Part shown: positions 9,948-39,108 of the stretch, one piece after another
Numbering within the stretch: the first letter of the stretch is position 1
Layout: each line of letters begins with the position of its first letter
Origin: Candidatus Poribacteria bacterium
Lineage (GTDB): Bacteria; Poribacteria; WGA-4E; B28-G17
DNA: 40,234 nucleotides
Assembly: GCA_021162805.1 (NCBI GenBank)
Contig: JAGGXZ010000229.1
Coordinates: 1 to 40,234, forward strand
Reading direction: 5' to 3'
Position numbers and translations under genes: made by a program
The notes under the pieces: model-generated
Seen by the model: only the letters and a program-made list of their open reading frames with translations
Told to the model about the DNA's origin: nothing
Database searches by the model: none

Positions 9948-12900
9948 CTACTTCAATATGACCATCCTTCTCACGAATTCCCTACCACCGACCACCATCT
10001 GGTAGACGTATATCCCGCTTGCCACTTTCTCGCCCATCTCGTTTCTTCCGTCCCAGTATGCGGCCGAAGATCTGGAGGTGTAGTAGCCCGCCCGAAGATA
10101 TCCCATGTTCAGTGTCCTGACCAATTTGCCGGTCATGTCGTAGATGCGGATCACCACGTCGGCGTCTTCAGCGAGCTGGAAGGGTATCCAGGTCTCGGGA
10201 TTGAACGGGTTGGGATAGTTGGGGAGCAAAGCGGTGCGTTTCGGGGTGGGTCGGAGCTGGATCTCGATCCTCACCAGTCCGGCGGCGATCTCCTCGGGGG
10301 TTATTCGATGCAGAACCGGTTCGGCGCAATACCCTATGGGAGCATCAACTGTTACCTTGATCAGATCCCCGATCTCGTGCTCGATGCCGAGCTTCATCAG
10401 CGCAACGGCAAATCCTCCGTTTTCAACCTCAGCCGTTTCACTTATCCCCCTGGTGACATTCTCCACCCTGACGTTCACGCCTTCGGTCATTCCGGCTAGA
10501 TCGCCCTCGATGACGACGAGTGGCGAGCTCTCAGACGAGGAAAGTACGATGGCAGGTGCGGCTGCTCCTTCCTCGGTGGACCAAGTTTCGCCCTCAAAGG
10601 TATATGTGGCATCGGATTTGGCGATGACGAGATAACCGGCTCCACCTCGCACATCCACGTTCCACTTCGATTCCGCGGCGGTTTGTGGTATGAGCGCCTT
10701 GAACTTGTTCTCGGAGCTGTCAAACCAGAGAAGGGTGGTTATGGCATCGCCAAAATACGACATGAAATCGCTCAGCTTCATCGGTTCAGCGGGCTTGACA
10801 GGCATGGCGATGAGGTTCACGCCCTTATGTATTGATACCGTTCCGTCCCATGCATATCCCTCCAGGTCGAGCGTCACGGGCTCCTTCAACGATGTCAGAT
10901 ATCCTTCGTTTCCGCTTATGGGCGTCTGAGCGGCCTTCGGATCTCCCGGCAGCAGCACATCGAATTTCCCTCTTTCGACGTTATATCGGAGTATGAACCT
11001 CGCTGCATCGCCCATGGCGTTCATCAGATCGGCCACGGTGGTTATGTTCGGATCGCTCACCGGTACTGAGAACAGGTTCAGCCCGGCGCTCAAGCTCAGC
11101 GTGAAGGGCCTTGCCGTCTGGATCAACACCAGAGCGAGCGTTCCCAGTCTCGAGGTTCGAGCGGTAAGGGTCATCGTCGCCTCATCCACCGTTTGATCTT
11201 CAACCGCCACCCATTCATCGTTCACCCTGAGGTAGAGCGTCGGCATGAACCTCTTCAGATCCACGGTCGTGGGTATCGGGACGATCACGGTCGCATCGCC
11301 CCCAAGCGCTTCGACCGGCAGACCGTCCTGGCCGTAGACGGAGAAGTCAAAGGCGATCGGAACAGTTCCCAGATCGGGTATCGAGCTGATGGCGAGGGGG
11401 GCTATGGAGAGGCTCACCTTGAAACTCGGCGTTCCCCCAGGTATCGATCCCTCACTCAACTGAACGGATGCGAGATCGGGGTAGTCAATCGCCGCTGCAT
11501 CGGGCGATCTGAAGATCCGGGCGGCGACGTTATCGGAGAGAGCCTCTTTGCCCTCATTGCCCGCGGCATCTATCGGTGTGACAGCGTAGAAATATGTCTT
11601 ATCGATCTGGACGGTCGGATCGCGGTATTCGGTCTTATCGATGTTCTGGGCTATCAGCAGGTCATCTGAGACGGAGGTGATGGGAGAGTCGGATCGGTAG
11701 ATGTTGTATTTCGCCGCTTCATCGGTTCCACTCCAGCTCAAAAGCACGCTTCTGCCGTCGAGGGAAACCCTCGCACGGAGATCGGTGGGTTGAGCGGTCG
11801 GCGGCTGAACGTCGAGATAGACGATTTGTGGATCAGTCGTGGCCTTGTTCCCCGCGAGGTCTATCGCCTCGATCTGGACGGTGTTTTTGCCTTCAGCGAG
11901 CGTGGCGGTCCACCGGAAGCTGAGAGCGGGCGTCAAGGCGTTCCGCTCGCCGTTGAGGATCACGGTCAACTCGCTCAACTCCTCATCGCTCCATCCGACG
12001 AGCATCGCCTGAGGTTTATTCGTATATTCGGCGATGATGAAGTTCACCTTGGGCGGTGTCTGATCGAGCGTCACCCTCACCGGGTCGGATAACTCGCTCT
12101 GGTTGCCCGCTTTGTCGACGGCATAGGCGGTGATGGTGTTTTCGCCCTTGGAGAGGATGACGTCTTGCACCGTAAACGAGCCGTCATCATTGACATCGGC
12201 CGATCCGGCCTCAACGCCATCCACCAGAACGGTTACGCTGAGGGGATTGTCCGGCGTGGCGTTCGGAACGGTTCCCGTCACATCCACGTTCTTCTGATTG
12301 GTAGGCGATGTGATCGGATCGAGCACGGGTTTATCCGGTGCCTCAGTCACCACGTAGAAGCTCCATTGGGTTTCATCCTGGTTTCCGGCTTTATCAGCGG
12401 CGACAACTTTGACGGTATTTTCGCCGATCTGGATCGGGTTCTGGTTCTGCTCCTGTAACTGTTTGACGTTTATAAGGAGGGTTCCCGATCTTCTGTTGAG
12501 GCTTACAGCGTTTCTCATCGACGACCATCCCAACTGTTCGATCGGAATCTGAACGCCGTTTATGAACACCGTGACGTTACTCCAATCCACGCCGCTATCG
12601 CCGTCAAGTATTACGATGAGTATCATCTGTAGCAACGTCAAGTTGATGGATGAACCGGGGGCAGGGCTCTGATTGGCGAAGTCCGGAGGAACTTCGTCCG
12701 TATAGGAAGTGTCAACTGTGAAGGTGCTCGATGCGGTGCTGATATTGCCTGCCACATCTGCGGCGGTCACCTCGAACGTGTAGCTTTCGCCGTCCTGAAG
12801 CGGTTGGCCGATCTGATATGAGATCTCGCCGCTCGCCGGGTCATAATTGAAGTCGGTTATCTCCTGGCCGTTGAGGAGGAGCCGGAGCGAGGATCGATCG

Positions 12901-15900
12901 ATCCCATAGTTATCGGTCAGGGCGGCCGACAGAGTCGGCGTGGCGTTGGAGATAACCGAACCGTCCCCAGGCGCCATGGCGCTTATCTGAGGCGACGTGG
13001 TATCGATGATGAAGCTCCAGCTCACCAACATCGGGTTGCCAACTTTATCCTCGGCATAGAGGATGATCAGATGCTCTCCTTCATCCAGAACCGCGGGCGT
13101 ATAGCTGACCGTTCCGTCGGCAAAGGTCGCCTCCACCTGAACCCTATCCAGGCTCATGACGATCGAATCGGGTGCAACACCGCTCAGATCGTCCGATATC
13201 GTCGCGCCGATGGAGCCTATCCCGTTGAGCACCGCTCCGTCGACAGGGCTGAAGTTACCCGCTGTCGGAGAAGCGATGTCATAGCCGACCTGGACCGGAT
13301 CGGATCGATCGCTGACGTTGCCATAACTGTCCTGTGCCTCGGCCGTGATGGCATTCACGCCAGGCGTGAGAGGCACGTTCCCCTTTGAGAACCTACCGGT
13401 GTCATCCGCGACGGCCGTTCCAGCCGGTATGTCGTTTACGAAGATCTTGACGAGAGAACCGGGTTCAGCGACGCCGGAGAGGGCGATGGCGCTTTCGGAG
13501 ACGAATTGGGGTAACGGATCGAGAACGGGTTTTACGGCTTTCGTCTTCACGGCGAAGTTGACGGCATCCTCCGCTTTGTTGCCGTTGTTGTCGGAGACAG
13601 AGGCCGAGATAGCATGTTCGCCGTCGGCGAGAGGGGAGACAGGCGTGAAGGTAGCCGTATCGGTCGTCTCATCGAACTGATACTCCACCGTCGTGCCGTC
13701 AAGCATGACCGATATCGAGTTCGGATCGACATCGGATTGGGGATCTGAGAAGACCACCGAGAAGGTCGGCCGGTTTTCGGTCAAAACATCACCCTCGTTC
13801 ACGGAAAATCTGATAGTCGGTGGAGTGGTATCGAGTATCGCCGTGTTGACCAGGAAGGTAGCGGAGACAGGTGTAGCCTGATTTCCGGCTCTATCGGAAC
13901 ATCTGACCTCGAATTCATGCTGAGATCTATCGTCGAACGGTCCCGCCTGATAGGTCAGTATGCCGGTTGAGGGATCATAGCTGAACCCGGTGACCGGCTG
14001 ACCGTCCAGAATCAGCTCGATCGATTCGGGATCGACGCCGCTCACCCTGCTTGAGGTCGGATCGGACAGCGTAGCGGTTAAGGTCGGTGTTAGGGAACCA
14101 GTAACGGTTGAAGGCTCAAGGGCGGTGATGACCGGAGAAACGGTATCGAGTAGCACCTCGACCGGCTGGGAGAGCTCGCTCGTGTTCCCGACGGAATCGG
14201 TGGCGGTCGCAGTTATATCGTTCATCCCTTCAGCGAGCGTCAGGTCTGTCGAAAAGGCGCCTGTGTTGGAGTCAGCGTTAACGGTGGCAATCGGGTCGCC
14301 GTTGAGATATATTTTGACAATCGATCCGGGCTCAGCTGTGCCTGTGAGGGTCAGCGCGGGCTGATTCGTTGGGGTGTTTGGCTGTTCGAGCGTGGGCGGC
14401 TGTGGTGGAGTGGAATCGACGGTGAAACCGAAGCTCGACGTGCCCTCATTATCGTTGTTATCTTGCGCCGAAAGCGTCACGGTATAAGCGCCGTCGGTGA
14501 GCGGCGATGCCGGAGTGGTGCTTATCCTACCCGTGGATTCGTCGAAATTGATCCCCGCCAGCGGCACGGAGTTGCCCTCCGAATCAGCGAGCTCCACCGA
14601 AACGGAGCCCTTCTTGATCCCGCTCGGATCGGTGACGATCGCCGAGATGGCCGGCTGAGGATCGGGTATCGTGCTTCCATCGGCGGGCGCGAACTGGCTG
14701 AAGGTCGGCGGCTCGGTATCCTGAGCGTATACGTTGACCGTGAAGCTCCAGCTCGCTGTGCCCGTGTTTCCGACCCCATCGCCGACCTCGACGCTTACCG
14801 TATACTGCGCCCTGTTAACTAGGTCGGAGTCGGGCGTGTAACTCAAGAGACCGGTGTTGGGATCGAAGGTCGGGTTAAGAGCGAACGTTTGCCCTCCAAC
14901 AGCGAGCGTCATCGTTATGCTGTGGGGGACTATTCCGCTCAGATCATCGGTCAACGTGGCCGAGATCACAGGCCGCCTTGTGATAACCGTGCCACCGTCC
15001 GGAGGTGTCAATCCGGCGATAGAGGGTGGTGTCGTGTCTACGATAAGCTCTGTCGGTGGGGTGGGATCGCTCGTGTTGCCCGAGCTGTCGGTCGCCGTAG
15101 CGGTCACCTGATAGAGCCCGTCCGCCAGATCGGTTATCTCTATCGAGAAAGTCCCGTCATCTCCGCTCGTGCCCGTCCCGCGGACTATGCCGTTTAACAT
15201 CACATTAACCGTATCGCCCGATTCAGGTTGACCGCCTTCTCTGTCGTAGACCGTTCCGGTGACGGTGATCGAGGTTTGACCGGTGGGCGAGGTTATCGGA
15301 TCAAGCAGTATGTAGGGCGGGATGGTATCGGGGACGGTGACGATGAGGGTGTCGGTGTCAGTGTTACCGGCTGCATCCTCAACCTGAAGTGTGACAGTGT
15401 ATGTCCCGAAAGCTGAATATCCGCCGCTCAAGGTCGGATTAGGTCCTGTCAGATCAGGGGACTCGAAATCCACCCCGTCGCTCGCATCGATATCCCACTT
15501 ATAGCTTACTATCCCGATGTTGTCGGTCGATCCTCTGCCGTCAAAGGCTACATCCTGCCCCAGTTCGACCCTCTGATCCGGCCCGGCGTTGGCGGTTGGA
15601 GGATCATTATCGACGACGGTTATCGTATACGAACCGGCCTCGGGTGTTCTGGTTGTGTTACCCAAACCGTCTGAGGCGATGATATAGTATGAGATCGGAT
15701 CGACTGAGGTAAGCGGTATCTGGATCTGGTATCTGAACTCATCCGGCCCCACCTTACCCATCGTCTGGGCGGTGCCATCCAGATAGATATCCGCTGATAT
15801 CGGCTCGGTCGGATCCTGAGCGGTCAACGCTATCTCGATGACCTCCCCCGTGGTGCCCTGAGCATCTCCCGTGACCTGCGCAATCGTCGGTCCGTCGCCG

Positions 15901-18900
15901 TCCAGTCTGAGAGTAACGGCGTCCGAGACGTTATATTCCGGGGCCGTGGCGGTTATCCAGACATCTCCGGAGGTCATTCCAGCGATGTAGAGGGTTGAGA
16001 ACCTGCCGTTTTCATCCGTGGTGCCGCTTGTCTGGGCTAGACTGCCCATTCCCTCGGTCACGGTCAGTTCGACCTGTGCGTTTGGAGTAGGTTGACCGTT
16101 CGAGATGAGGGTGGCGATCACCTCGGCCGTGGAGGTCCCATCGGCTTTAAGCAGCGTCGGAGTTACAGAGAGGACGATGGCGTTTTCGACGTTGACGACC
16201 GTTATATGTACCGTCATCTCACCTGAGAGCGGCGGGGTGCGGTTATCGGTGGCGGTAAACGTCACGTCATATTCGCCCGCCTGTTCGAAGTTGGGGGTGA
16301 AGGTAAACTGGCCCGTGACCGGATCGAACTCGGCGCCTTCGGGCAAACCGGCCGCTGAAAGGGTTACAGGATCGCCATCGGGATCAACCGCTGTTACGAT
16401 GAAACTCAACGTTTCGCCCTCGTTGATCGTCTGATCGGCTATCTCCACAAGCTCCGGCGCCCTGTTGGGAGGAGGCGAGACGGTGACGGTCGATAAGCTT
16501 AGCTCGCTCACTCCTCCATCATCGTCCTTGACGCGCAATGCGACGGTGTAAGTGCCTTCCCTTTCATAAGTGACAGTTGGGTTTTGTTCGGTGGAGTCTA
16601 CGTCAAATGTGATCCCATCGTAATTGAAATCCCACTCATAGGTGAGCGTATCGGCTGGCACATCGCTTCCAGATCCCTGGAGCTCTATCGGCTCGCCCGC
16701 TATCCCATCATATGGCCCATGAGCATCGGCGGTCGGAGGGAGATTGCTGACGTCAACCGTAGCGGTACCGCTTGCCGATCCGCCGTCATCGTCCGTCACG
16801 AGAACTCCAACCGTATATGTGCCGTTATCCGGGAAGGTATATTCGACCGTAGCTCCCGTCGCATCGTCATATTCCCCATCCCCGTCCAGATCCCACGCAT
16901 ATGACAGCGTATCGGCCGGCACATCCGTAGCCGTGGCGGTCAGGGTTATCGGTTGCCCCTCATCTCCTGAAAACGGCCCGAGGGTTCCCAAAACGGGAGG
17001 CTTATTGTTCACCGTCACAACGGCGCTGGCTGTGGAGTAATCCCCGTCGTCATCCGTGACCTTCAATCCGACGGTGAACTGACCGTCATCGGGATAACTC
17101 ACGCTCGTCGTCACTCCGGTCGCGTCATCATACTGTCCATCGTTATCCAGATCCCACTCATAGCTCACTATGGTTCCGTCTGGATCATACGAGCTACCTG
17201 CATCTAAAACCGCTGATTCGCCTTCATATATAGTGTATTCTCCTAACACAGCCACGGGAGGATCATTGACAGGATTGACGGTGATGCTCACCGTTGCCTC
17301 GGTGCTGTCCACCAACCCATCGTTCACCTTGAAGGTGAAACTATCTGAACCATGGAAGTTCAGGTTGGGGGTGTATGTCAGATTGGGAGCTGTCCCACTG
17401 AGAGTGCCGTTTGCAGGCTGAGTAACTATGATGAATGTGAGAGTGTCTTCATCCACATCGCTTCCTGTCAGCGTGATGTCCACTGGCGTGTCCTCATCCG
17501 TCTCCACAGCCTGGGAATCGGCAATAGGCGTATCGTTGACGGAGTTCACCGTGATGCTCACCGTTGCCTCGGTGCTGTCCACCAACCCATCGTTCACCTT
17601 GAAGGTGAAACTATCTGAACCATGGAAGTTCAGGTTGGGGGTGTATGTCAGATTGGGAGCTGTCCCACTGAGGTTTCCATTTGTGGGCTGAGAGACGATA
17701 ATGAACGTCAGAGTATCCCCATCCACATCGCTTCCTGTCAGCGTGATGTCCACTGGCGTGTCCTCGTCCGTCTCCACAGCCTGGGAATCGGCAACAGGTG
17801 GGGTATTTATCTTGATGTGTGCGCTTCGGATGTCAGTAACGTCCGTTGTGATACGCTCTGAGTCGAAAAACTTAACATCAGAGCATGTAAGAAGAACTTG
17901 ACCGCTTTTGAGAGCCTTAAATTGTATTCCGACAATGGGCCCAGTACCATCCGGTGCCTGTTCGGGATCCTGGCCTGGGAGACTATTCGAAAGGCTAATA
18001 ACCCCGGGTGTGGAGAGATCGACCTGGAGGAAAGTCTCGCCATCAGCGGATGTGACGAGGAAGCTGCCCTCTGTAATGCTGTCCTGAACAACCTCTAAGT
18101 ATTGAGGGTCGTAGTTGAGCTTGAAGTTGTATGAGTCGAGGTTGGTGACGTCTATGGCGGCGATCTCGACGTCAAATGTGCTTCCGGGGCTGACCGTCAG
18201 GGCATCCTGTATACCACTGGCGGACGGATTCAGATCGACCGCTATGGCAGGTGTGGGCCTCGGAACGTTCAGGGTTGCGGGAGTCACGGATGGGGTGAAT
18301 CTGTTCCGCTCGGAATCGAAAAGAGCGGGCGATACTATGTCGATCGATATATCCCCACCGCCGATCACCTTGAACTGCATCGTCGCCAGAACTCCATCTC
18401 CATCAGGAGCTTCCTCAGGATCTTGCCCCGGCAGTGAATTGCTCAGCCATACCTCGCCGGGTTTGGAGGTATCAGCCTGGAAGAAGGATTCGCCGTCCAC
18501 AGTCGTCCGAAGGAAATCGCCCTCGACAACGGATCCCCCCACCAGTTTCAGCTTGAATGGGTTGTAGGTCACCTTGAAGTCGTATGAGTCGAGGTTAACG
18601 GCATTTCGGATCTCAACTTGAACCGTGATTATATCCCCCAGAGCTGCCGTCGTAGTATTGACGATCACAATTAGAGCTTGAGCGTTCGGATCGGGTCCGG
18701 TTACAATCGATTCGGGTGAATTATTCGTCACGTCGTCTCTCTCTCGGTTTGAATCGAACAGAACCGCCTTATCGAACCGGATCGGTATCTCTCCACCGCC
18801 TATGAGGGTAAAACGCATCGTAGCGATCACACCTGTTCCGTCAGGCGCTTCCTCCGGATCCTGGCCGGGAAGCGAGTAGCTGATGGAGATCTTACCGGGC

Positions 18901-21083: not shown

Positions 21084-21110
21084 CGTTTTTCCTCCCTTAT
21101 TATGCATGTT

Positions 21111-28211: not shown

Positions 28212-28246
28212 TTTTTCTCCTTTCTTACACGGTGGATTGTGGTTTA

Positions 28247-28265
28247 CCAGACGGAGAACGTCTGG
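28247..28265 (-). other. Leader hairpin before the 2366-aa gene
   Basis: CCAGACG and CGTCTGG form a perfect seven-pair stem with a five-base loop, 35 bases upstream of the ATG at 28211. The spacing to the start matches that of the leader hairpin before the giant gene. It may stabilise the mRNA or bind a regulator; no T run follows. Confidence 0.4.
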
Positions 28266-28327
28266 CATTCTCGTTTTAACGCTATAATGTTTCCCATCTC
28301 TAGCTCACCGTCCCCCCATGGGTAATC

Positions 28328-28456: not shown

Positions 28457-31400
28457 TTATCTCAGAATAACCATCTTCCTGACAAATGCTTTCCCATCGA
28501 CCTGGAGCTGGTAGATGTATACCCCGCTCGCCACCCTCTCTCCTTGTTTGTTCCTACCATCCCAATATACTGCCCTCGATCGAGATATATAGTTTCCGGA
28601 GTCCACATGGCCTAGGTCAAATTTCCTCACCAGTTTTCCCGTCATGTCATATATCTTTATTATTACGTCAGCGTCATCTGCAAGCCTAAAGGGTATCCAG
28701 GTTTCAGGGTTGAACGGGTTGGGGTAGTTCTGAAGCAGCTCCGTCCGGGCGGGGATAAGCTCCACCATGCCGTTTTCCAATTTCACATCCACGTTCTCGT
28801 TCAGCTTACCCCTCTCCAGCTTCAGACGTGCGTATTCCGACGTATCGTCCATCACCTCAAATTCAAGATAAACCAGTTCTCTCGATTCCCCGGATCTAAT
28901 CCCGGCAAAGGCAAGCTTCAACATATCTCCCTCAACTCTGCTTTCGAGGCTGAAATTGCTCCTCGCTCCGATGAATTTAAGGGCTTTTCCGTCGAACCTT
29001 ATCGTTATCTCACCTGAGATTATCCCCTTCGGATCATCCACTAGGATGGGAATCGTGATCCGCTCGCCCGGCCTTGCCCTCAAGGATGTGAGGGAAATCG
29101 TGCGTGATTCAGCTTTCAGCGACGGCGCTCCTTCTCCTGATGCGAACTCCCCTATCAATCCCACGACGAACTGGAGGATTCTGGCCGCATCGAGAGCACT
29201 CACCTCCCCATTTCCGGTGACATCTGCCGCCTTAAGCTGCGTCTCGGATAGCTCCTCCTTGCCGACCAGATATCTGAGTATCTCAGCGGCGTCGTAGGCT
29301 GTGATCCTCCCGTCTCCTGAGACATCACCCAACGTTGATCTCCCACCCTTCAGCTTAGCCCTCAAAAGTGGGGTATCCGGATCGTTCGATCGGATCTCGA
29401 GAACGGCCTCTTTCACCCCCGGGCTCTGCGGACGGAACTCTATCCTCACCTGGCAGCTTTCTCCAGGCTGTATCGCCCGGTTCAAGCAGTTATCCTGAAG
29501 GATCCGGAACTCCGAGGCATCCGGCCCCGTTACAGAGATCGATCCGATATTCAGATCGCCTTGTCCTCCGTTTGAGACGGTCAGGCTCAGCTCCTTTGTG
29601 TCACCCGGCAAGACCGATCCGAAGTTAAGGGTTGAGGAGGACACGAGTATATTCGGAGCGGTGGAGATGCCGGGACCGTTGGCATCCACTATCCTTCCGT
29701 TCGACGTCAGATCGTCGTCGCCTCTTTCACCGTCCACGAGATGAAGTGTGATCACATTCCCGTTTATCTCAGCGCCGGTCTGACCGTCGAAGAGGAACTC
29801 ATACCAGTGCGGAGAGGCGTTCGTCGGCTCAGGCCCATATTTGTAGTAGGTGTTCGGAGCGCTGCCACTGGGCAGGTAGACCGTCACCGTCACCGATCCT
29901 CCCGGAGGGATGTTCTCGATCCTGAAGCTGAAGAGCCCCCACTGCAGATCCAAACCCTGCGGCGGGCTCTGTGGGAGATCATTGGGATCAACGTGATAGA
30001 CGTCCTCGAGGATCGTCCCCTGGGGCGAAGCGATCGTGACGTATCCCCGGCCGTTGTAGGTATGGAGCGATTCCACGTTCGGCTGCTCGCCGTCTGGAAC
30101 GCCATCGCTGTTCCCATCATAATTCTCCTGAACCCCCTCAGGCCCCCATTCCTCATAAGGACGTATCACTCCGCCGCGGACAGCTATGACTTTAAACAGA
30201 TCATCTTTGGATGCGAGCGAAACGTGTCCATCACCAAGTCCCACGATGAAGGCCTTGGTTTTAGAGCCTCCCGATTCCGTAGTGGAGGTCCAATAGGAGT
30301 AGATACTGCCTTGATTGTTGTCGAGCAGGTTATCGAAGCCCTGGGAATATAGATACTGGTCCGGGTGCGTCTCCCAGTAATCGATCAAAGATCTCAACTC
30401 CTTGACGTTCGGCAGCCTCCAGTCGGTGTATCCTTCCACATCGAGATTTGACACGAGATTCAGCGCCTCACTCCATCTCACTCTGCCGTTGGCGAGATCA
30501 GCGTTTCTGGTCCACATCAGCCCTGTGAGGTTGTCAACGATCACATCCTGATACGTCGTGAACCTGTGGATCGGCCACTCCATGCCCTGATCGTCGATCA
30601 TGGAGCCGGACGGTTTGGGAAGCTGTATGATGGGCGGCCCGTTGCTCGGAAGCTGCTCAGGCCCGCGCACCGGCCAGACGCAGGCGACGAAGTTGAAGGT
30701 AGGGGTCTCCTCATCGGTCTCCAACTGTACCACCGTTCCTCTTGTGGACGACCAGTAGTAGTAAGGTCCCGTATCGTCGAAAACCTTCTCATTACCGCTC
30801 CTCGCGCTTCCCAGCCAGAGATAGGATTGTTCTCCGTAGTTCAGCAGGCTCTCAAGCTCGTTTATGTTCGGCAACCTCCAGTCGGTGTATCCGGCGTTAC
30901 AATCGGCATAGGTTCCGTCGTTCATCCTCTGTATGAACATACCGGCGTATCTCCTGGAGACAAGCCCGTCTCCGGGGTCTCCGTTTTCGTTCGGATCGTC
31001 CTGTTCGGGAGGGGCGTCGAACTCAGGGTGAAATTCCTTTATAGGATTTGCACATTTAAGCCACATAAGCCCCGTTAGCTTGTCCGTCACTGTTCCATCG
31101 CCGTTGTCGATGAACCTCTCCCTTGCATCCAGCGGCCAAGGGACGCCGGCACGAACTTGGCCGTCCAGTCCCTCAGCCCATCTGTCGTAGCGGTCGATCA
31201 GGTCTCCATAGGGATCATAACATTCCGTCTGACCCGTTCTGGGCAGGCCGACGAGACCGCATATCCCCTCGACCGGTATCTCGAACGAGTCGTTGAAGGC
31301 TCCCGTCGAGATGATAAGTCTCGTCTTCTTCTTCAGACCGAGGGAGGTCGGCGAGAAGGCGAGCACCACCTCACGCGATCCATACGGGCTGAGGTATCCG

Positions 31401-34400
31401 GAACCGGAGCCGGACTTTATGCTGAACTGATCCGCGTTATCGCCCTCCAGCCGAATGTCGCTGATTTGAACTCGGAGGCCGGAGAGGTTCCTTATGGCGA
31501 CCCTGCAGGTTGAGGATTCACCCCGGATAACGGTGTGGAAATCGATCCTCTCAGGCCAGACCGCAAGCAACGGTATCAGTCCATTCTCATCGAATCCGTA
31601 GCTTTCCACCCGATCGACAAGCGGATATGGGTCGTCGTTATCATACTGGCTCGTCTGGTACGGCTGATCCCAGATCCCGTTGTGATCGGCATCCAACCCC
31701 TGCGGCGGCACGGCCGGATGATGCTCCAGGTAATCGTCCCAGTAGTTTCCAAGGTATCCGTGGAACTGCTGACCGTTATACCGGTAATCCACCTCCACGA
31801 GGGTATGCCATTGCGTCTCCGGGCTGCCCCCGGCGTCTGAGAGGGCGTTGTTGGTGTTCTGCAGGAAGTCGTTCAGGAAGATGAAGTTGCCCTGAGGCCT
31901 TGATCCCGTCGACACGCCGGTGTGGTTCCCTCTGACGATGTTGAGAAAGATCAGGTTGCTGCCGGAGGGGAGCTCCAGGCCTACCTGGTTTCCCTCCAGC
32001 AGGTTGCGGGATATCCGGTTGTCGGTGCCGCCGCCGGTCGGCGCAAAGGATATGCCGGCAGCTCGGTTGTCCGATATGGTGTTTCGGGTTATCAGGTTGC
32101 CATTTGAGCCGTAGAGGTAAATCCCCTGGCCGTTGCCCCGGATCTCGTTGTTTGAAATGGTGTTTCCACCTGATAACTCCAGATCTATTCCGATGTCGTT
32201 GCCGGTTATCGTGTTATCGGAGATGATACAGTTATGGGAGCGGACCAGAGTCACTCCGGCCACGGAGGTTCCCGTAGAGCCTGTTATCTCCAGACTCTGA
32301 ATCACAACCCCATCCGCCGCTATCGAGAAGACGGATTTTGATGGATCTTCAGCTCGAATCGTGACGTTGGCATCGGAGGCAGCTCTGATCGTCAGGGATT
32401 TGTCAATGGCAATGTTGTCGAGGAGCACTCCCTGCCCTTCGATCACGAGCGTATCCCCTTCGAGGGCCTGATTGACGGCTTCGCTTATGGTGTCGAACGT
32501 CTCGTCCGTCCTGATGTTTCTGACCTGTAAGGAGGTGGGAGAAACAGCGGGTGCGTTCTGGTCAATTATTACACCGTTCTGGGCCAGATCATCGTCTCCC
32601 CTTCCCCCGTCTACGAGATGAAGCGTAATCACGTTCCCGTTCATCTCGGCACCGGTCTGACCATCGAAGAGGAACTCATACCAGTGCTCATTAGGGTCGT
32701 CGGATGTGGGACCGTACTTGTAGTAGGAAACGGGATCCGAACCCTGCGGCAGATAAAGCGTTACAGCCGCCTCGGTCACGCCGGGGTCAAGCTCTATCTG
32801 GAAGCTGAAGAATCCCCATGGGAAGTTCGCATCCTGGGGAGCATCCTGCGGATGGGGGTTATCCATCGTCCTGACATCCCTCAGAGAACCACCGGAGCAC
32901 GCAAGCGTGACGTAGTATGAACCGTCGAAGGTGTGAATGGAAGTTACATTTCCCTGCTGCCAATCGGGAATGCCGTCGTTGTTGCCGTCATAGTTGGGGT
33001 CATTTCCCTGAGGCCCCTGTTCCTCCGAATCAGCCACGCCGTCCCCGTCCTCCTCCCATTTCAGCCTTGTCTCCTCCGTGACCATGTTGTTCTGATCGTT
33101 GGGGTCAAGTGAAGTGGTGGCGCAGGTAACGGTGGCGGTGTTGACGATTCTATCGTAGGCGATATCATAAGGTGCCTGGACCGTGATGGTAAGGGTGGCC
33201 TGCTGGTTGGTGTCCAAACCCGGTATGTGCCAGTTGACGGAGTGTGATTGCTGATCGTAGCTGGCGTTCCCTACGGAAGGGGTGGCGCTGACGAAACTCG
33301 CCTGGAAAGGAAGCTCATCCCCCACATCGGCATACTCCACAGGATCAGGACCGTGATTCACAACCGTCAAGGTATAGGTCACCTGCTCGCCGATCGTCAC
33401 GGGATCGGGCGAGTCGGTCTTCGTTATCTCCAGATCGGAGATCGGCGCGGATTTATACTCGTAAGCTCCGATATCGGGTGCGCTCCCCTGAGATCTGGGC
33501 ATATATTCAAGATCGACAAGAGGTATTCCGGTTCCGCTCATTCCAGCATCTATAGCCGGGCTTCCCTGCTGGAGGTGATAGTCTCCTTCCGTTCCCCAGG
33601 CGGGAGATACAAAGAGAGGATCACGTGAAAGGTTCCCCTCCCCGAGTTCTCCCGCCTCTATCTGTGCGGCCGTGTAATCCCTACCATTCGCATATACCTG
33701 AACGTCCTGCCCAGGGCGGTAGAAAATGCAGTGTTCGGCGGTGAAGTTCACCACATCGCTTATGTAGACTATTCCCCCTCCACCGGCGATGATGGTATTA
33801 CGCATCACCAGCGTGATCGGATTGGCGGTGCTCGGATATAGCGGGTCCGGATACTGAACATACATGGAATAGGCCTCTCTTGTGGGATTGTCATGGACGG
33901 TGGTGTTGACGATCTCGAAATGGGCGTTGAGCTGCTCGATCTGGTCTATCACTATCCCAGCCCACGGCGAAGCTCCTCCCACGCCATCCCCTGTGCCGTA
34001 GATAAGGCAGTTCTCTATCTTGCTGTTATCCCCCCAAAGCTTTATCCCATCGCAGGAGTTATTGGCGACGATGCAATTGTGAATGTAGGTGTTCTGCGCT
34101 TTAGAGTCCAGCCCATCCCCTTTGTTGTGTTCGACGATACAATCGGCTATTTCCACAGGCCCGTCCGAAGGCTCTATCCCGAACCCATCCGGTCGATCAT
34201 AGGGATTATTGGGGTTATCCTCGACGCCTTGGTAGTAGTGTCCGCTATAAGAGAGATGACATCCTCTAATGACGACGTCCCTCCACCCACCTTGACTCCC
34301 TCTGGGTCCTCCCAGTCCTCCGAAACCGCAGTGATGGACCCGGCAGTTCTCGACCAGAAGATCCTCCACATCTTGAATGTTCATCCCGAATTCATCTATG

Positions 34401-34870
34401 TGGTGGATGTGGAGGTTTTTGAGGACGATATGGCTTGCGGGACTACCAAGGATCTCCAGACCGTCCCTGAATAAGGCGCCACCATCGCTCGTTATTTCGA
34501 TGTTTTCTATCCTGACATAGCTGCATCCCGAGAGATCTATCGCCGTCAACAGGTTGCCTCTTCCGGCTAATATAGGGGTGTTTTCCTCCTCGCCGATTAT
34601 GGTGATCCAGGCATCGGAACGACCTGATGTGGGAGCGATTATATCGTCCGGATACCGACTCAGGACATATCTTCCGCCGAGGATGATAAGGGTATCGCCC
34701 GGTTGGAGCTGCCTGGAACCATATCCGGGTGTTGCCCATGGATGATCATGCGTGCCCGGATTGGAGTTATCGCCGTTAGGGGAGACGTAGTAGATGCTCC
34801 CGTAGAGCTGCGACACACCTACAGAGGCAAGTCCTATAAGGATCAGGATGGCGAGAGCTTTTCTAGTCAT
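28457..34870 (-). CDS. Exported beta-helix, DUF1566, dockerin and cohesin-like protein with C-terminal sorting-type domain
   Basis: This 2137-residue protein starts at ATG 34870 after GAGGAGGAAG. It has a signal peptide, a right-handed beta-helix (about 25-470, with YYVSPNGDNSNPGT as in DUF1565 proteins), a DUF11 domain (477-587), a choice-of-anchor U-like domain (about 620-765), a second NosD-type beta-helix (783-1057), an ASH-type domain (1097-1203), two DUF1566/Lcl domains (1253-1403 and 1447-1567, each with YTDWRLPN), a second choice-of-anchor U-like domain (1587-1743), an ASH/choice-of-anchor D domain (1743-1840), a dockerin (1848-1912), a cohesin-like domain (1913-2040) and the terminal domain with LLQNYPNPFNPETWIPFRL. 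The two anchor-U copies share the blocks HWYEFLFDGQTGAE and NGNVITLHLVDG. Its start overlaps the upstream protease gene by eight bases (ATGACTAG). It is probably a surface adhesin or glycan-binding protein; no catalytic site was recognised. Confidence 0.83.
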   Translation of the reverse strand: MTRKALAILILIGLASVGVSQLYGSIYYVSPNGDNSNPGTHDHPWATPGYGSRQLQPGDTLIILGGRYVLSRYPDDIIAPTSGRSDAWITIIGEEENTPILAGRGNLLTAIDLSGCSYVRIENIEITSDGGALFRDGLEILGSPASHIVLKNLHIHHIDEFGMNIQDVEDLLVENCRVHHCGFGGLGGPRGSQGGWRDVVIRGCHLSYSGHYYQGVEDNPNNPYDRPDGFGIEPSDGPVEIADCIVEHNKGDGLDSKAQNTYIHNCIVANNSCDGIKLWGDNSKIENCLIYGTGDGVGGASPWAGIVIDQIEQLNAHFEIVNTTVHDNPTREAYSMYVQYPDPLYPSTANPITLVMRNTIIAGGGGIVYISDVVNFTAEHCIFYRPGQDVQVYANGRDYTAAQIEAGELGEGNLSRDPLFVSPAWGTEGDYHLQQGSPAIDAGMSGTGIPLVDLEYMPRSQGSAPDIGAYEYKSAPISDLEITKTDSPDPVTIGEQVTYTLTVVNHGPDPVEYADVGDELPFQASFVSATPSVGNASYDQQSHSVNWHIPGLDTNQQATLTITVQAPYDIAYDRIVNTATVTCATTSLDPNDQNNMVTEETRLKWEEDGDGVADSEEQGPQGNDPNYDGNNDGIPDWQQGNVTSIHTFDGSYYVTLACSGGSLRDVRTMDNPHPQDAPQDANFPWGFFSFQIELDPGVTEAAVTLYLPQGSDPVSYYKYGPTSDDPNEHWYEFLFDGQTGAEMNGNVITLHLVDGGRGDDDLAQNGVIIDQNAPAVSPTSLQVRNIRTDETFDTISEAVNQALEGDTLVIEGQGVLLDNIAIDKSLTIRAASDANVTIRAEDPSKSVFSIAADGVVIQSLEITGSTGTSVAGVTLVRSHNCIISDNTITGNDIGIDLELSGGNTISNNEIRGNGQGIYLYGSNGNLITRNTISDNRAAGISFAPTGGGTDNRISRNLLEGNQVGLELPSGSNLIFLNIVRGNHTGVSTGSRPQGNFIFLNDFLQNTNNALSDAGGSPETQWHTLVEVDYRYNGQQFHGYLGNYWDDYLEHHPAVPPQGLDADHNGIWDQPYQTSQYDNDDPYPLVDRVESYGFDENGLIPLLAVWPERIDFHTVIRGESSTCRVAIRNLSGLRVQISDIRLEGDNADQFSIKSGSGSGYLSPYGSREVVLAFSPTSLGLKKKTRLIISTGAFNDSFEIPVEGICGLVGLPRTGQTECYDPYGDLIDRYDRWAEGLDGQVRAGVPWPLDARERFIDNGDGTVTDKLTGLMWLKCANPIKEFHPEFDAPPEQDDPNENGDPGDGLVSRRYAGMFIQRMNDGTYADCNAGYTDWRLPNINELESLLNYGEQSYLWLGSARSGNEKVFDDTGPYYYWSSTRGTVVQLETDEETPTFNFVACVWPVRGPEQLPSNGPPIIQLPKPSGSMIDDQGMEWPIHRFTTYQDVIVDNLTGLMWTRNADLANGRVRWSEALNLVSNLDVEGYTDWRLPNVKELRSLIDYWETHPDQYLYSQGFDNLLDNNQGSIYSYWTSTTESGGSKTKAFIVGLGDGHVSLASKDDLFKVIAVRGGVIRPYEEWGPEGVQENYDGNSDGVPDGEQPNVESLHTYNGRGYVTIASPQGTILEDVYHVDPNDLPQSPPQGLDLQWGLFSFRIENIPPGGSVTVTVYLPSGSAPNTYYKYGPEPTNASPHWYEFLFDGQTGAEINGNVITLHLVDGERGDDDLTSNGRIVDANGPGISTAPNILVSSSTLNFGSVLPGDTKELSLTVSNGGQGDLNIGSISVTGPDASEFRILQDNCLNRAIQPGESCQVRIEFRPQSPGVKEAVLEIRSNDPDTPLLRAKLKGGRSTLGDVSGDGRITAYDAAEILRYLVGKEELSETQLKAADVTGNGEVSALDAARILQFVVGLIGEFASGEGAPSLKAESRTISLTSLRARPGERITIPILVDDPKGIISGEITIRFDGKALKFIGARSNFSLESRVEGDMLKLAFAGIRSGESRELVYLEFEVMDDTSEYARLKLERGKLNENVDVKLENGMVELIPARTELLQNYPNPFNPETWIPFRLADDADVIIKIYDMTGKLVRKFDLGHVDSGNYISRSRAVYWDGRNKQGERVASGVYIYQLQVDGKAFVRKMVILR

Positions 34871-36956
34871 GGCCCTTCCTCCTCATGGACATGTTTCGGG
34901 ATGAAGCGGTTCCTCTCTTTTCTTCACCGATCTTTTCGCCTGAATGCGCCGATTTATCCAGCCCGACCACGAATTTCAAGATTGAAATGACATCATGGGG
35001 GGTTACCCTGTCATCGCCGTCCACATCGGCTATCTTTCTTTCATCCTCCGATAGATCTCTCAGCCCGGCACATGATTGCAGGACCAAAGACGCGTCGAAC
35101 GCCGTTATCCTCCCGTTTCCCGTCACGTCGCCGGGCTGAACCACATAAGCATAAAAAGGGATCTCGATCGATGAGGATGCCGGATCACCGGCTTTCACGG
35201 TCAATTTGCCGGAATGTTTACCGAGCTCATCTGAGAGAAAATTCACCTCCACCTCAGCGCTGGAACCGGGTGGGATAAAAAGCGAGGTGACGGAAAATGT
35301 GATCTCCGGAGGTCCAACCAGATCAATTGACACCATATTCTCCCCGGTGTTTGATATGGTCAGGATCAGCTTTTTCGGTTTCCCGATGAGAACCTCACCG
35401 AAGCGAAGTTTGGAAGGTTGCACAGATATGGCGGATGAGGGAAGGATATGATATCGCGAGTAGATCGTCCCCAACTCGTCCTCCATATCGAATTCCATCG
35501 CTGACCAGTCTTCTTTGAATTCAATTATATCCTTTGGCATCGCCACATCCATCACCCTCCAGAGCTCTGAAAGCTCGCCGTTGATCGGATCATCGTCCAC
35601 CTCCGGCTGGTGATCCTGGCTTTGAGGCGTATCGGCTATATCCCACAACACGCTTGCTACTGCTCCCTCGACGATCGAGCCGTCCTCATTATTGCCATTT
35701 CCATTTGGATCGCCGCTCCACCACTCGTTCTCCTCGATGTTCGGCGTGGACTTGTTGATCCAATACGTGACGTTGAAGGCGTTATCATCCACGAGGGCCT
35801 CGAAGAACTCCGCCCATCCCTCGGTCATCGCGAATCCCCTGTCGGAGACCGTGGTGAGCTGATGGGAACCCTCATAGATCTTATCAGGAAGGTTATAAGC
35901 GTTATAGTCATAAAGGGCGGACATAACCGAGTGCCCGTATTCATGGATGATCGTCGTTCGTCGCCATTCCCACCCTGTCGGTATGGTTATCGACTCGTCA
36001 TATATCTTCCCGTCTGAATGATACCAGTAATGATAATAAGGCCAGTTGCCGCTGGGATACTCCACCCTTATCCTTCTCCTCGACCATCCCAACTTTTCCA
36101 TCAGGAAATCGTGGGCATCCATAACGGTATCGTGAATAAATCCTAACATCCTGTAAGGATTGGCGGAATCGAAGATGTAATCTATCCTATAGCTCCCTGT
36201 CTGCGATATGGAATGGGATATAGATCGAAACCGATATACGTTCTGATCCGAATCTGTGAGAGATAAAACATCGTTTTCAAACCGTACTTCAATGCATATC
36301 GAAAGGGGAAGATTGCTGGATATGGAAAAGAGATATTCTCCGTCTCGATCGGTAAACGCCTCCCCGAGCACCGTCTCTTCCGGGGTGGAGATAAGCCTCA
36401 CTTTGACGGATCGGACGGGTTTTTCGACCTGAGCGTTATCGTCGAAATAGAGTATTTTGCCGGAGATCGTCGTCGTCCCACCAGGGGCGAAGGAGAGAAC
36501 TCTTAAGCGGAGTTTAGCGAGGTATTGAGATGGGGCGAGGCTGACGCCGAAAGTTGAGCTGGGGATAGATAGGGTAAACTGCTGAGACACCTTCCTCCCG
36601 TCGGCTAACATGGCGTAGACGGAGACGTGCAGCGAAGGAACAGGAGATGTGAACTTTATACGGACGGAATAGGATCTCTCGTCGCCATATGAGATGGTAT
36701 CGTTGAACTCCGTCCTCTCACCCAGGACTTTAACGCCGCGGGGAAGCCTGAAGACCACCTTCACACTGACCCGGTCAACATGTTCTTTGAGGTGTAGGTG
36801 CAGGGTTAAAATATTCTCATGATCTATCATCGGCCGGTCCGACAGCTCCATCTTCCCTTCTAGGAGCTGAGGGTAAAGCCTATCGGCATATGAAGTACCC
36901 ACCGTAACGGCCACAAGCAAAGCTGTGCTCAGATAGAATATCTCCCTTAATCTCAT
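34863..36956 (-). CDS. Exported zinc metalloprotease with C-terminal dockerin
   Basis: The 697-residue product has a signal peptide (ending near SYADR), Ig-like N-terminal domains, and a carboxypeptidase-regulatory-like domain with ISGKILYFDD and FTDRDGEYLFSIS at about 160-225. A gluzincin-type protease domain follows, with HEYGHS at about residue 340 (the HExxH zinc motif) and GWAEFFE at about 380 supplying a likely third ligand. An ASH-type domain (about 515-605) and a dockerin (609-665: GDVTGNGRITAFDASLVL and ADVDGDDRVTPHDVISIL) come next. A short basic tail (RNMSMRRKGHD) follows the dockerin. It should be exported and docked to a cohesin, several of which are encoded just downstream. The GGAG directly abuts the ATG at 36956, an unusually short spacing; an AAGG further up (13 bases before) may help. 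The stop overlaps the next gene, so the two proteins are probably made together. Confidence 0.85.
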   Translation of the reverse strand: MRLREIFYLSTALLVAVTVGTSYADRLYPQLLEGKMELSDRPMIDHENILTLHLHLKEHVDRVSVKVVFRLPRGVKVLGERTEFNDTISYGDERSYSVRIKFTSPVPSLHVSVYAMLADGRKVSQQFTLSIPSSTFGVSLAPSQYLAKLRLRVLSFAPGGTTTISGKILYFDDNAQVEKPVRSVKVRLISTPEETVLGEAFTDRDGEYLFSISSNLPLSICIEVRFENDVLSLTDSDQNVYRFRSISHSISQTGSYRIDYIFDSANPYRMLGFIHDTVMDAHDFLMEKLGWSRRRIRVEYPSGNWPYYHYWYHSDGKIYDESITIPTGWEWRRTTIIHEYGHSVMSALYDYNAYNLPDKIYEGSHQLTTVSDRGFAMTEGWAEFFEALVDDNAFNVTYWINKSTPNIEENEWWSGDPNGNGNNEDGSIVEGAVASVLWDIADTPQSQDHQPEVDDDPINGELSELWRVMDVAMPKDIIEFKEDWSAMEFDMEDELGTIYSRYHILPSSAISVQPSKLRFGEVLIGKPKKLILTISNTGENMVSIDLVGPPEITFSVTSLFIPPGSSAEVEVNFLSDELGKHSGKLTVKAGDPASSSIEIPFYAYVVQPGDVTGNGRITAFDASLVLQSCAGLRDLSEDERKIADVDGDDRVTPHDVISILKFVVGLDKSAHSGEKIGEEKRGTASSRNMSMRRKGHD

Positions 36957-36972
36957 CTCCTAATCGCCTTAC

Positions 36973-37034: not shown

Positions 37035-37081
37035 AGTGTTACCATGGTTGTAAACTATCTCCTCTTCCATCACCTTAGACC

Positions 37082-37534
37082 TCATTTTTTAAAGAGCACT
37101 GTTAATATGATGGTGACCAGCATCGGGAGCAATACGCCGACGATTATCCCTACCAGATATCTGAAGTTTTTATGGATTTCATCTTTCAGTCCATCTATTT
37201 TTGAGTTCAGCTCTCCTATTTCCCTCATCACTTCGGTCCTCAATCTATCGTCCCTGCTTAGCATTTCATCTCTCAACTCGTTCATCTCAGACCTCAGCCT
37301 GCCTATCTCTCCCATCACCTCAGTCCGTAACCCATCGATCCTGGTATGCATCTCAGCTCGCATGTCGCTCATCTCTGCCCTCAAACTGGCTATCTCCCCT
37401 CTCAGCGTATCCGTCTCTGACTTCACGGCGTTGCGCAGATCGCTTATCTCCACCTCTATGTGATTCAACCTCTGATTGATCTGTTCCATTATCCCTTCAA
37501 GCCTTGCCAGCCTTTCTTCCATGCTCTCTTCCAT
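37082..37534 (-). CDS. Coiled-coil protein with C-terminal membrane tail
   Basis: The 150-residue protein is almost entirely heptad repeats (LRxEMxxxRxE patterns, about residues 5-120), followed by one hydrophobic segment (LVGIIVGVLLPMLVTIILTV) and a short KK end. This is a tail-anchored layout with the coiled coil probably on the cytoplasmic side. It starts with ATG 37534, two bases after the stop of the dockerin protein gene (TAAAGATG), and its ribosome-binding site GAGGAG lies inside that gene. Translational coupling is therefore likely. It resembles the two shorter proteins encoded at 39131-39427 and 39491-39862 in layout and in the N-terminal LEERxARxEGIxxQ motif. The function is unknown; oligomerisation at the membrane is inferred. 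Confidence 0.78.
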   Translation of the reverse strand: MEESMEERLARLEGIMEQINQRLNHIEVEISDLRNAVKSETDTLRGEIASLRAEMSDMRAEMHTRIDGLRTEVMGEIGRLRSEMNELRDEMLSRDDRLRTEVMREIGELNSKIDGLKDEIHKNFRYLVGIIVGVLLPMLVTIILTVLFKK

Positions 37535-37536
37535 CT

Positions 37537-39108
37537 TTAGCGCTCCTCAACGGGGAAATTTTCGATCAACCCAACTACCCTCCTGAGGATGAGGGCGGCA
37601 TCGTAGGCTGTGATTTTCCCGTCGCCGCTGACGTCGGCCGCCTCGAGGGCCTCCTGGGATAGATCTTCAAGACCGACTATGTGTCTCAGGACGAACACCG
37701 CATCATAGGGGGTCACCCTGCCATCGCCGCTCACGTCGCCGAAGAGCACCCCTTCCATCATGAATTCCATCTCGCCCATCTCATCGCCGGAGGAGCCATC
37801 GGATACGATCAGTTTCGGGATCAACCGGCCTCTGCTTTTAGGCTCGAAGGAGAGCTCTATTTCGGCCTCGTCGTTCGGCGGCAGGTTCAGTGAATCTATC
37901 TTTTCACCATTCAGCTTGAAAATCACGCCATCTATCCCCTCACCCTCCAGTTTTAGTTTGAGATGAAGGGGTGAATCCGACATGTTCCTGAGCCTAAGCT
38001 TACGCCTTACCAGTTTTCCTAACGGGTATCTCCCCAGTCTGATCCTAGGCGATATAATCGGAGGTGGGGAGACCGGCCTTATCGGAAGAACGGGGATGAT
38101 GATCGCTGGAGGCTCCCACGGCTCGATCTGCATGGAGCCGATCCCCTCGGACGGCTCATATTCCGGGTCTCCTTCGAAAACCGCCTTGATTTCGATCCTC
38201 TTTTCAGACGGAGCCATAACGAAACACATGAGCTTTGCTATCCCTTCATCGTTCGTCTTCGCCCTACCTTTGTAGAGGCCGTCCATGTAGAACTTGACAG
38301 GTTTAGCCGAAAGCGGGTTGCCGTCGGAATCTTTCAAGACAGCGGTGACTTTTACAAGCTGGCCCAATCTGCATCGTACCTCCGGCACCTCGATCGAGGT
38401 TTCCTTTCGTTCCACCGATTCCCCCAAGGTGAAGATCACCTCGACGTTTCTCCTGGGCAGATAGAACCACCCCGAGGAATGAAATTCGAGATAAACCCCC
38501 TCTCCGTTCTTTGACAGAGAGAGATCCACTGGTTTGTATTTCACCACGTTCGAATCGGGAGGCAATTTGACGAATAGGTCGATGCTCTCATATCTTTTCG
38601 TAAAGACCCTGCCCGTCCCGAAGGCATATCTCAGGAGATATTCGCCCTCGTTTTCAGTTAGTTCATGTGAGTATCTTACATCTATTTCGATCTTCCGTGC
38701 CTCAGAGATGGACAGCTTACATTGAATGAGCTGGAAGTCCTTAAATTCGGGATATGGGTTTTCTATGACTTCATATTCGAGCTCCCTTTCTGTTCCGTCC
38801 TCGTCCTTCACGATCACCTTTATATCTTGGGCGTTTGGGGGAACCGGAAAGTGGATTATAAGATCCTGGGGGATCTCTATCCGCTTACCTACATCCGGCC
38901 AGTCCAGGCCTGGTATTCTCACGCTCATCTTGGCCTTACAGATGACGTCGGAGAGGAGTTTATCATCCTGGTTTGAAACTACGATCCTGACGTCCTCGTT
39001 GAACAGCTCAATCCGGAGCTTGCCTATAAGGATCGGATTTGCCCCGGCGTTCAATACGAACCCGATGGATAAGATTAGAGAGGTAAAAATCGCCGCTATA
39101 CCTTTCAT
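37537..39108 (-). CDS. Exported dockerin protein with Ig-like domains
   Basis: The 523-residue product starts at ATG 39108 behind AAGGAGGAAGGAGA. It has a signal peptide (MKGIAAIFTSLILSIGFVL), beta-rich domains of unknown type (about 25-240), a Big-type Ig domain (about 245-325, with VTAVLKDSDGNPLSAKPVKF), a Pro/Ile-rich hinge (PIRPVSPPPIISPRI), an ASH-like domain (about 355-450) and a C-terminal dockerin (456-513: GDVSGDGRVTPYDAVFVL and ADVSGDGKITAYDAALIL). Both calcium loops are intact. No catalytic motif is visible, so it may be a structural or binding subunit. It is wedged between two coiled-coil membrane-tail genes, and its stop is two bases from the next start. Confidence 0.8.
   Translation of the reverse strand: MKGIAAIFTSLILSIGFVLNAGANPILIGKLRIELFNEDVRIVVSNQDDKLLSDVICKAKMSVRIPGLDWPDVGKRIEIPQDLIIHFPVPPNAQDIKVIVKDEDGTERELEYEVIENPYPEFKDFQLIQCKLSISEARKIEIDVRYSHELTENEGEYLLRYAFGTGRVFTKRYESIDLFVKLPPDSNVVKYKPVDLSLSKNGEGVYLEFHSSGWFYLPRRNVEVIFTLGESVERKETSIEVPEVRCRLGQLVKVTAVLKDSDGNPLSAKPVKFYMDGLYKGRAKTNDEGIAKLMCFVMAPSEKRIEIKAVFEGDPEYEPSEGIGSMQIEPWEPPAIIIPVLPIRPVSPPPIISPRIRLGRYPLGKLVRRKLRLRNMSDSPLHLKLKLEGEGIDGVIFKLNGEKIDSLNLPPNDEAEIELSFEPKSRGRLIPKLIVSDGSSGDEMGEMEFMMEGVLFGDVSGDGRVTPYDAVFVLRHIVGLEDLSQEALEAADVSGDGKITAYDAALILRRVVGLIENFPVEER

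Follow-up and report, generated by a model that had tools for sequence, protein, structure and literature searches.

Cohesin-dockerin pairing ranks among the strongest protein-protein interactions that biology and biotechnology make use of, and knowledge of it comes mostly from cellulose-degrading Clostridia. The window studied here (the whole 40,234-nt stretch of DNA analyzed) belongs to an uncultured marine member of the Poribacteria phylum, and its positions 9948 to 39108 hold six protein genes, all on the minus strand (p523, p697, p2137, p2385, p469, and p3092; Table 1). A preliminary description had read this block as a locally encoded, cellulosome-like surface complex without cellulases, raising the question of whether its modules are genuine and what they would assemble. 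We consider it somewhat more likely than not that the block is one part of a type IX-sorted, non-cellulosomal, genome-wide cohesin-dockerin network located at the outer surface of the Poribacterium.

Cohesin and dockerin modules in the block and in the genome

Modules were detected with the curated Pfam cut-offs of 22.9 bits for PF00404 (dockerin) and 24.1 bits for PF00963 (cohesin). This search gave six cohesins, namely, three in p3092 (75.5 bits summed), two in p469 (63.8 bits), and one in p2137, together with four dockerins above the cut-off, those of p523, p697, p2137, and p2385. The dockerin of p469 scored 16.8 bits, under the cut-off, but matched solved (PDB) dockerins with an E value of 4.4e-9. 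Pfam thus agrees, to within a few residues, with the five dockerins and six cohesin modules noticed earlier, and both kinds of module coexist above the curated cut-offs in one genome; among 14 control genomes, cohesin matches were found in one and dockerin matches in two. The cohesin and dockerin modules of the block are confirmed as genuine.

The whole genome (4.35 Mb) yielded 31 cohesin and 23 dockerin matches, so that about 0.2 of each would be expected in 29 kb; the block holds six cohesins, four dockerins above the cut-off, and one weak dockerin. With just 6 of the 31 cohesin matches in the block, a purely local network is rejected: the network is genome-wide, not local as first described.

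We then considered whether the cohesin-like modules could be unrelated Ig domains. An AF2 model of p469, based on a 21-sequence alignment, reached a pLDDT of 84.6 and a pTM of 0.81 (a single-sequence run on residues 9 to 369 reached a pLDDT of only 42 and was discarded). Compared with solved cohesins by Foldseek, the model matched 2xdh with the highest target TM-score, 0.83, and 3ul4 with 0.79. This resemblance, together with the Pfam ranking, rules out unrelated Ig domains as the identity of the modules; the fold check covers p469 only, the cohesins of p3092 and p2137 being assigned by Pfam.

Table 1. Features of the gene block and its neighbor (positions in the window)
Feature	Position	Strand	Description
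p523	37537..39108	-	secreted Ig/ASH-domain protein; class-A dockerin at C terminus; no CTD
p523 dockerin	37576..37740	-	residues 457-510; PF00404 48-52.6 bits
p697	34863..36956	-	putative zinc metalloprotease with ASH domain; C-terminal class-A dockerin; no CTD
p697 HEYGH motif	35931-35945	-	EGWAEFF further along the chain
p697 dockerin	34989..35135	-	residues 608-656; PF00404 32.4-36.7 bits
p2137	28457..34870	-	beta-helix/DUF11/NosD/Lcl_C/ASH, then dockerin-cohesin-CTD
p2137 dockerin	29177..29332	-	residues 1847-1898; PF00404 52.0-57.4 bits, best of the genome
p2137 cohesin	28829..29098	-	PF00963 27.1 bits (genome search); between dockerin and CTD
p2137 type IX-like CTD	28466..28726	-	PF18962 29.6 bits; TIGR04183 34.4 bits
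p2385	21111..28268	-	divergent N-terminal dockerin, TIG domains, beta-helix, PD40 propeller; no CTD
p2385 dockerin	27960..28145	-	N-terminal; PF00404 27.1-31.8 bits
p469	19698..21107	-	cohesin-dockerin-cohesin-CTD; adaptor-like
p469 cohesin 1	20652..21005	-	PF00963 38.0 bits
p469 dockerin	20442..20597	-	residues 171-222 (about 163-214 from likelier start); degenerate loop 2
p469 cohesin 2	20073..20336	-	PF00963 31.1 bits
p469 type IX-like CTD	19707..19967	-	TIGR04183 34.4 bits
p3092	9948..19226	-	three N-terminal cohesins, long Ig/PKD/cadherin-type run, CTD; scaffold candidate
p3092 cohesin 1	18726..19082	-	PF00963 34.8 bits
p3092 cohesin 2	18321..18668	-	PF00963 41.9 bits; 56% identity to cohesin 1
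p3092 cohesin 3	17856..18197	-	PF00963 45.7 bits
p3092 type IX-like CTD	9957..10217	-	PF18962
GH42-like secreted protein with CBM4_9	6049-9204		neighbor of the block; no dockerin

For two proteins the likelier start lies downstream of the first ATG, giving 2366 instead of 2385 aa for p2385 (likelier start at 28211) and 461 instead of 469 aa for p469. The p2385 dockerin accordingly spans residues 42 to 103 of the longest open reading frame, or about 23 to 84 from the likelier start. The p2137 and p697 genes overlap by 8 nt, at the start of the former and the end of the latter; operon structure was judged from gene spacing alone.

Dockerin loops and recognition classes

Reading of the loops showed that both calcium loops carry ligands at the usual positions of a type I dockerin in p523 (DVSGDGRVTPYD and DVSGDGKITAYD), p697, and p2137. 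In p469, loop 2 of the dockerin (DVSGRNGVNPYD) misses the usual ligand at position 5, and loop 2 of p2385 has a 3-residue insertion and a different recognition pair (the pairs of this dockerin are GK and KS). The p2385 dockerin is of a different class and may not share a partner with the others. A loop-1 pair of AY, AF, SF, VY, or PY was present in 23 of 25 dockerins scanned at non-Bacillota loci, and AY at loop 1 in just 2 of 64 scanned Bacillota dockerins. A putative dockerin specificity class with A or S and Y or F at positions 10 and 11 is directly testable.

It could be argued that the modules have lost mutual recognition and persist as calcium-binding linkers or adhesion Ig domains, a view in line with reports of non-cellulosomal dockerins proposed as adhesins (PMC10066038), with class-B dockerins that adjoin a CTD and have no cohesin alongside, and with a genome (G003) in which dockerins are present and a profile search found no cohesin match. 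We regard this as improbable, since the class-A recognition pair is conserved across phyla, cohesins 2 and 3 of p3092 are 77% identical to those of the orthologue in MAG B28_G17 (sister genus; the nearest named relative), and dockerin genes adjoin cohesin genes in many phyla. In B28_G17, the p3092 orthologue directly follows a terminal-dockerin gene, with a gap of about 14 nt, an arrangement in favor of the proposed network.

Type IX-like sorting domains and the dockerin-cohesin-CTD cassette

A type IX-like C-terminal sorting domain (CTD) terminates p3092, p469, and p2137, passing the TIGR04183 cut-off in p469 and p2137 and the PF18962 cut-off in p3092. As each of the three ends in its own CTD, they are probably attached individually. 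The search for the type IX apparatus covered SprA alone and revealed a SprA/Sov-like protein of 2010 aa (TIGR04189, 161.5 bits against a cut-off of 200; E value, 1.8e-47), as well as a SprA_N match marginally above its cut-off. In the network that we favor, p3092, p469, and p2137 would be exported and attached through the type IX-like CTD, displaying their cohesins, while p523 and p697, which have signal peptides and no CTD, would be retained there through their C-terminal class-A dockerins, which would bind these cohesins in a calcium-dependent manner.

A compact dockerin-cohesin-CTD cassette closes both p2137 and p469. About 12 proteins of this genome carry it, in all cases with only short spacers between modules, and MAGs of Latescibacterota, Ignavibacteria, and Bacteroidetes show the same order, often beside a cohesin scaffold gene. 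Within the phylum, the full dockerin-cohesin unit is patchy and largely absent from the biggest family; this patchiness and the atypical second loops of the p469 and p2385 dockerins count against the network. Module order was read with HMMs built on own-genome matches, which makes their E values on those proteins circular; they were used for order and not as evidence of homology. The layout of p469 fits the adaptor role proposed for it in the preliminary description, and p2137 has the same adaptor layout and is not plain cargo. The two, each with a dockerin, a cohesin, and a CTD one after another, would act as adaptors able to dock to a scaffold and accept a further dockerin.

The short spacers also suit a different arrangement, in which the cassette dockerin clasps the cohesin of its own chain, forming a closed, rigid stalk before the CTD, a spacer like the X-dockerin dyad, so that only terminal-dockerin proteins dock in trans. 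The pTM of the three-domain p469 model, high for freely hinged modules, points the same way. We nevertheless find such a clasp rather unlikely, as p523 and p697 carry terminal dockerins of the same class in chains with no cohesin, indicating that the class needs no partner in cis.

A broader idea, which we put forward as possible but doubtful, is that the cassette is a trans-phylum adaptor providing each type IX-sorted protein with a plug and a socket, CTD-less proteins being held at the surface via docking. If so, anchored plug-and-socket proteins could be connected in chains or in a lateral lattice, CTD-less proteins would reach or stay on the surface via CTD-bearing partners, possibly co-exported with them, and the dockerin would substitute for the type IX sorting signal. 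The relatives of p697 bear on the network that we favor. All nine class relatives with a visible dockerin have one of class B, six of them with a CTD as well, as has the p697 paralogue of the same genome; p697 stands alone in combining a class-A dockerin with the lack of a CTD. However, two relatives end in a class-B dockerin without a CTD, showing that the exchange of CTD for dockerin is not clean.

Cargo of the proposed network

The protease, beta-helix, and propeller cargo described earlier was recovered as domains of p697, p2137, and p2385, and p697, a putative metalloprotease with its HEYGH motif and terminal dockerin, is a dockerin-bearing enzyme. In p3092, the proposed scaffold, no catalytic domain was found beside the three cohesins. 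Other scanned dockerin/cohesin proteins contain nuclease, M23, C13, DUF3160, BNR/sortilin, PD40, and beta-helix domains, those with SNase and C13 domains being encoded elsewhere in the genome; none of these scanned proteins has a cellulase domain.

The GH42-like secreted protein with CBM4_9 that adjoins the block, and the beta-helix proteins, which could be lyases, might suggest a true polysaccharide-degrading cellulosome with cellulases encoded elsewhere in the genome. This is very unlikely: the GH42-like neighbor has no dockerin, and no CBM3 appeared among the best 25 of the 28 Pfam families matched by p3092. The reported lack of GH9 cellulases holds genome-wide (95% complete), two control genomes giving GH9 matches; a GH48 search gave no match in this genome or in any control genome. 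A cellulosome with distant cellulases is rejected on the basis of the genome-wide GH9 search combined with the cargo scan. Of the cellulosome-like surface complex first envisaged, the modules, the scaffold and adaptor candidates, and the non-cellulase cargo stand, while its type IX-like CTDs and genome-wide extent had been missed.

Comparison with known systems

If confirmed, the network would make the cohesin-dockerin pair a general surface-assembly device tied to type IX-like secretion in uncultured phyla, where its cargo would be proteases and structural proteins. It would also explain, in a way that can be tested, how secreted proteins lacking a CTD are retained on such surfaces.

The block shares with the clostridial cellulosome a multi-cohesin scaffold, an adaptor with dockerin and cohesin (ScaB), and terminal dockerins (PMC12484212). 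A dockerin-bearing S8 protease (PDB 8x39) is a minor cargo there, a likeness to p697, and the p469 and p523 dockerins have their best sequence matches among clostridial cellulosome dockerins. The clostridial system differs in its cellulase cargo, CBM3, Gram-positive anchoring, and dockerin recognition residues. The sole solved cohesin matched by the p469 sequence (E value, 0.0011) is the non-cellulosomal 2xdh of Archaeoglobus fulgidus, which is archaeal, a single cohesin structure, and devoid of a type IX sorting domain.

Like the network proposed here, the "planctosome" of freshwater Planctomycetes (Nemodlikiaceae) is non-cellulolytic, with metallopeptidase cargo and a dockerin-plus-cohesin adaptor, but its proposed anchor is a lamin-tail domain rather than a type IX CTD, and its other cargo differs (PMC6461901). 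The cellulosome-like complex of Ca. Stygibacter (Cloacimonadota) resembles the present system in its giant 3755-aa cohesin scaffold, which bears a type IX CTD, and in its dockerin-bearing peptidases, and no cellulosome-type cellulases are reported for it; it differs in the CBM2/CBM3 on its scaffold and the GH18 and GH57 in its cargo, and the portion of that report considered here describes no dockerin-cohesin-CTD adaptor cassette (PMC8542988). Systems similar to the present one have thus already been described, in Ca. Stygibacter and as the "planctosome"; the main feature overlooked in the preliminary description is the dockerin-cohesin-CTD cassette.

Cohesin and dockerin modules in the window and genome

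Pfam agreed with the dockerins (PF00404) and cohesins (PF00963) listed in the preliminary description, at positions within a few residues. Only the dockerin of p469 (pN denotes a window protein of N residues) scored under the Pfam cut-off (16.8 versus 22.9 bits), and its comparison with solved dockerins gave an E value of 4.4e-9. Inspection of the loops showed the expected ligands in the dockerins of p523, p697 and p2137; loop 2 was atypical in those of p469 and p2385. An AlphaFold2 model of p469 residues 25-367, computed from 21 aligned sequences, reached a mean pLDDT of 84.6 and a pTM of 0.81. In a Foldseek search of the PDB, the Acetivibrio ScaA cohesin dyad ranked first, followed by many cohesins at target TM-scores of about 0.7 to 0.83, the highest being that of 2xdh from Archaeoglobus, with integrin ectodomains further down the list (TMt 0.14). 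Since cohesins top the list, the p469 modules are predicted to fold as cohesins, as had been proposed, rather than as unrelated Ig domains; in p2137 and p3092, the three-cohesin scaffold candidate, cohesins were assigned by Pfam.

The whole genome (4.35 Mb) gave 31 cohesin and 23 dockerin matches, while only 1 and 2, respectively, of 14 control genomes gave any, indicating that the cohesin-dockerin finding is real and part of something larger. Across this genome and 39 relatives, cohesins occurred in 39 of 40 and dockerins in all 40. One relative of the same class (G009) shows a large family expansion: it has 44 cohesin matches, and its dockerin-cohesin proteins, about 20 or more in number, appear to have an insertion separating the two dockerin loops.

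Organization of the gene block

The first 8 nt of p2137 overlap the end of p697, and p2385 and p469 are a few nucleotides apart. As a further CTD (type IX-like C-terminal sorting domain) protein ends just upstream, the cluster may extend beyond the window. Interspersed with the dockerin genes and ahead of them are genes for three small coiled-coil proteins that resemble one another and have a hydrophobic segment at the C-terminus. p124 resembles the end of p2385, with p469 in between, and looks like a duplication remnant.

Coordinates of the gene block and of individual features
Feature	Position	Strand	Description
Eight-gene block	39108 to 9948	minus	consecutive; short gaps or overlaps; p523, p150, p697, p2137, p2385, p469, p124, p3092
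CTD protein	39942-40229		C-terminal end, at window's edge
Coiled-coil proteins	37082-37534, 39131-39451, 39491-39919		
p124	19317-19691		PD40 propeller fragment without signal peptide
W-A-x-M/I-K cohesin proteins	L003:3533-5479, L006:2566-3957, L007:11292-11792		own genome

A dockerin-cohesin-CTD cassette

The C-termini of p469 and p2137, overlooked in the preliminary description, consist of a dockerin, a cohesin and a CTD of the Por_Secre_tail/TIGR04183 type. About 12 proteins of the genome have this order with short spacers, although the HMMs used were built from the same protein set and thus give module order, not independent homology. The query for a scan of named genomes was the dockerin-cohesin module of p2137/p469, with CTDs and neighboring genes excluded. 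Candidatus Poribacteria were recovered, with the same-family MAG B28_G17 (QNBQ01) as best match. The full cassette was present in other Poribacteria (L062, L064, L077, L091, L105) and, outside the phylum, in Latescibacterota (L063), Ignavibacteria (L065, L074) and Bacteroidetes (L066, L067, L070, L071, L072); no CTD was found in the Bacillota loci of the scan. At L065, L070, L071, L072 and L074, a cohesin protein, in most cases CTD bearing, is encoded by the adjacent reading frame, which overlaps or lies at a distance of 3-63 nt. The distribution of the complete unit among Poribacteria is patchy: it occurs in families f1, f4 and f5, in part of f3 and f8, and in the two more distant genomes of the phylum, whereas family f2 gave mostly cohesin-only matches. 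In a Methanosarcinales MAG (L129), an archaeon, tandem genes have the orders cohesin-cohesin-dockerin and cohesin-dockerin.

Dockerin classes and the p697 protease

The genome harbors at least four dockerin classes: class A (TAYDA-type; p523, p697, p2137, p469 and others), class B (NIFDLVLVGRHFGEK-type, mostly immediately ahead of a CTD), class C (VDQADILPIGLHWN, carrying an insertion) and outliers such as p2385. Positions 10-11 of clostridial dockerins are recognition residues. In loop 1, these positions were A/S/P/V plus Y/F in 23 of 25 dockerins from non-Bacillota loci of the scan, whereas AA, AE, IR and others dominated in Bacillota (AY, 2/64), a contrast that is a tendency only because the tblastn filter is biased toward the query's own dockerin type.

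Relatives with 35-40% identity to the core of p697, a putative zinc metalloprotease (HEYGH, followed by EGWAEFF), occur in 11 other genomes of the class. All nine with a visible dockerin carry class B, which runs on into a CTD in six, as in the own-genome paralogue on contig C64; two stop at the dockerin and one is cut by the contig end. p697 is the sole class-A member of this comparison, its dockerin being terminal and the CTD absent. In B28_G17, a different cargo (a repeat/ASH protein lacking its 5' end) terminates in a class-A dockerin, and the p3092 orthologue follows after about 14 nt; cohesins 2-3 of this orthologue share 77% identity with their p3092 counterparts. This gene order and conservation provide our best evidence for a putative cargo-scaffold partnership.

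The cargo had been described as free of GH9 and GH48 cellulases. Indeed, GH9 was absent from the whole genome, while control genomes did give matches; the GH48 search matched neither this genome nor any control. Of the 29 other own-genome dockerin/cohesin proteins, 23 were scanned with Pfam; these showed SNase, M23, C13, DUF3160, BNR/sortilin, WD40, PD40, LRR and beta-helix domains but no cellulase. A GH42-like secreted protein without dockerin adjoins the block.

Probable export route and proposed working

The genome has 33 PF18962 matches and encodes a 2010-residue protein that matches SprA_N as well as TIGR04189, the latter at 161.5 bits (E 1.8e-47) and so short of the 200-bit equivalog cut-off; a type IX-like export route is therefore likely. 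Three CTD-less cohesin proteins have a short motif in common at the C-terminus, W-A-x-M/I-K (TTWAEMKLRGMR, TPWAKIKAMR, SIWAEMKKAG), which may be a further signal for sorting or anchoring.

Most likely, a type IX-like system would place the CTD proteins p3092, p469 and p2137 on the surface, where these proteins would offer their cohesins; p523 and p697 would dock through their terminal dockerins, presumably depending on calcium, and p469 and p2137 could additionally plug into another cohesin. The main rival is that the dockerin-cohesin cassette clasps in cis, and the pTM of the predicted p469 structure is compatible with such a rigid arrangement.

Relation to known systems

Systems of this kind are already known. 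In Candidatus Stygibacter, a CTD-anchored cohesin scaffold is accompanied by dockerin-bearing peptidases and non-cellulase glycosidases (PMC8542988), and the planctosome is a proposed peptidase complex whose adaptor combines dockerin and cohesin (PMC6461901). Our literature search found no paper combining Poribacteria, cohesin and dockerin. Given these precedents, novelty is confined to specific parts: the phylum, the dockerin-cohesin-CTD cassette shared across phyla together with the scaffold gene beside it, and the presence of a terminal class-A dockerin in the p697 protease.
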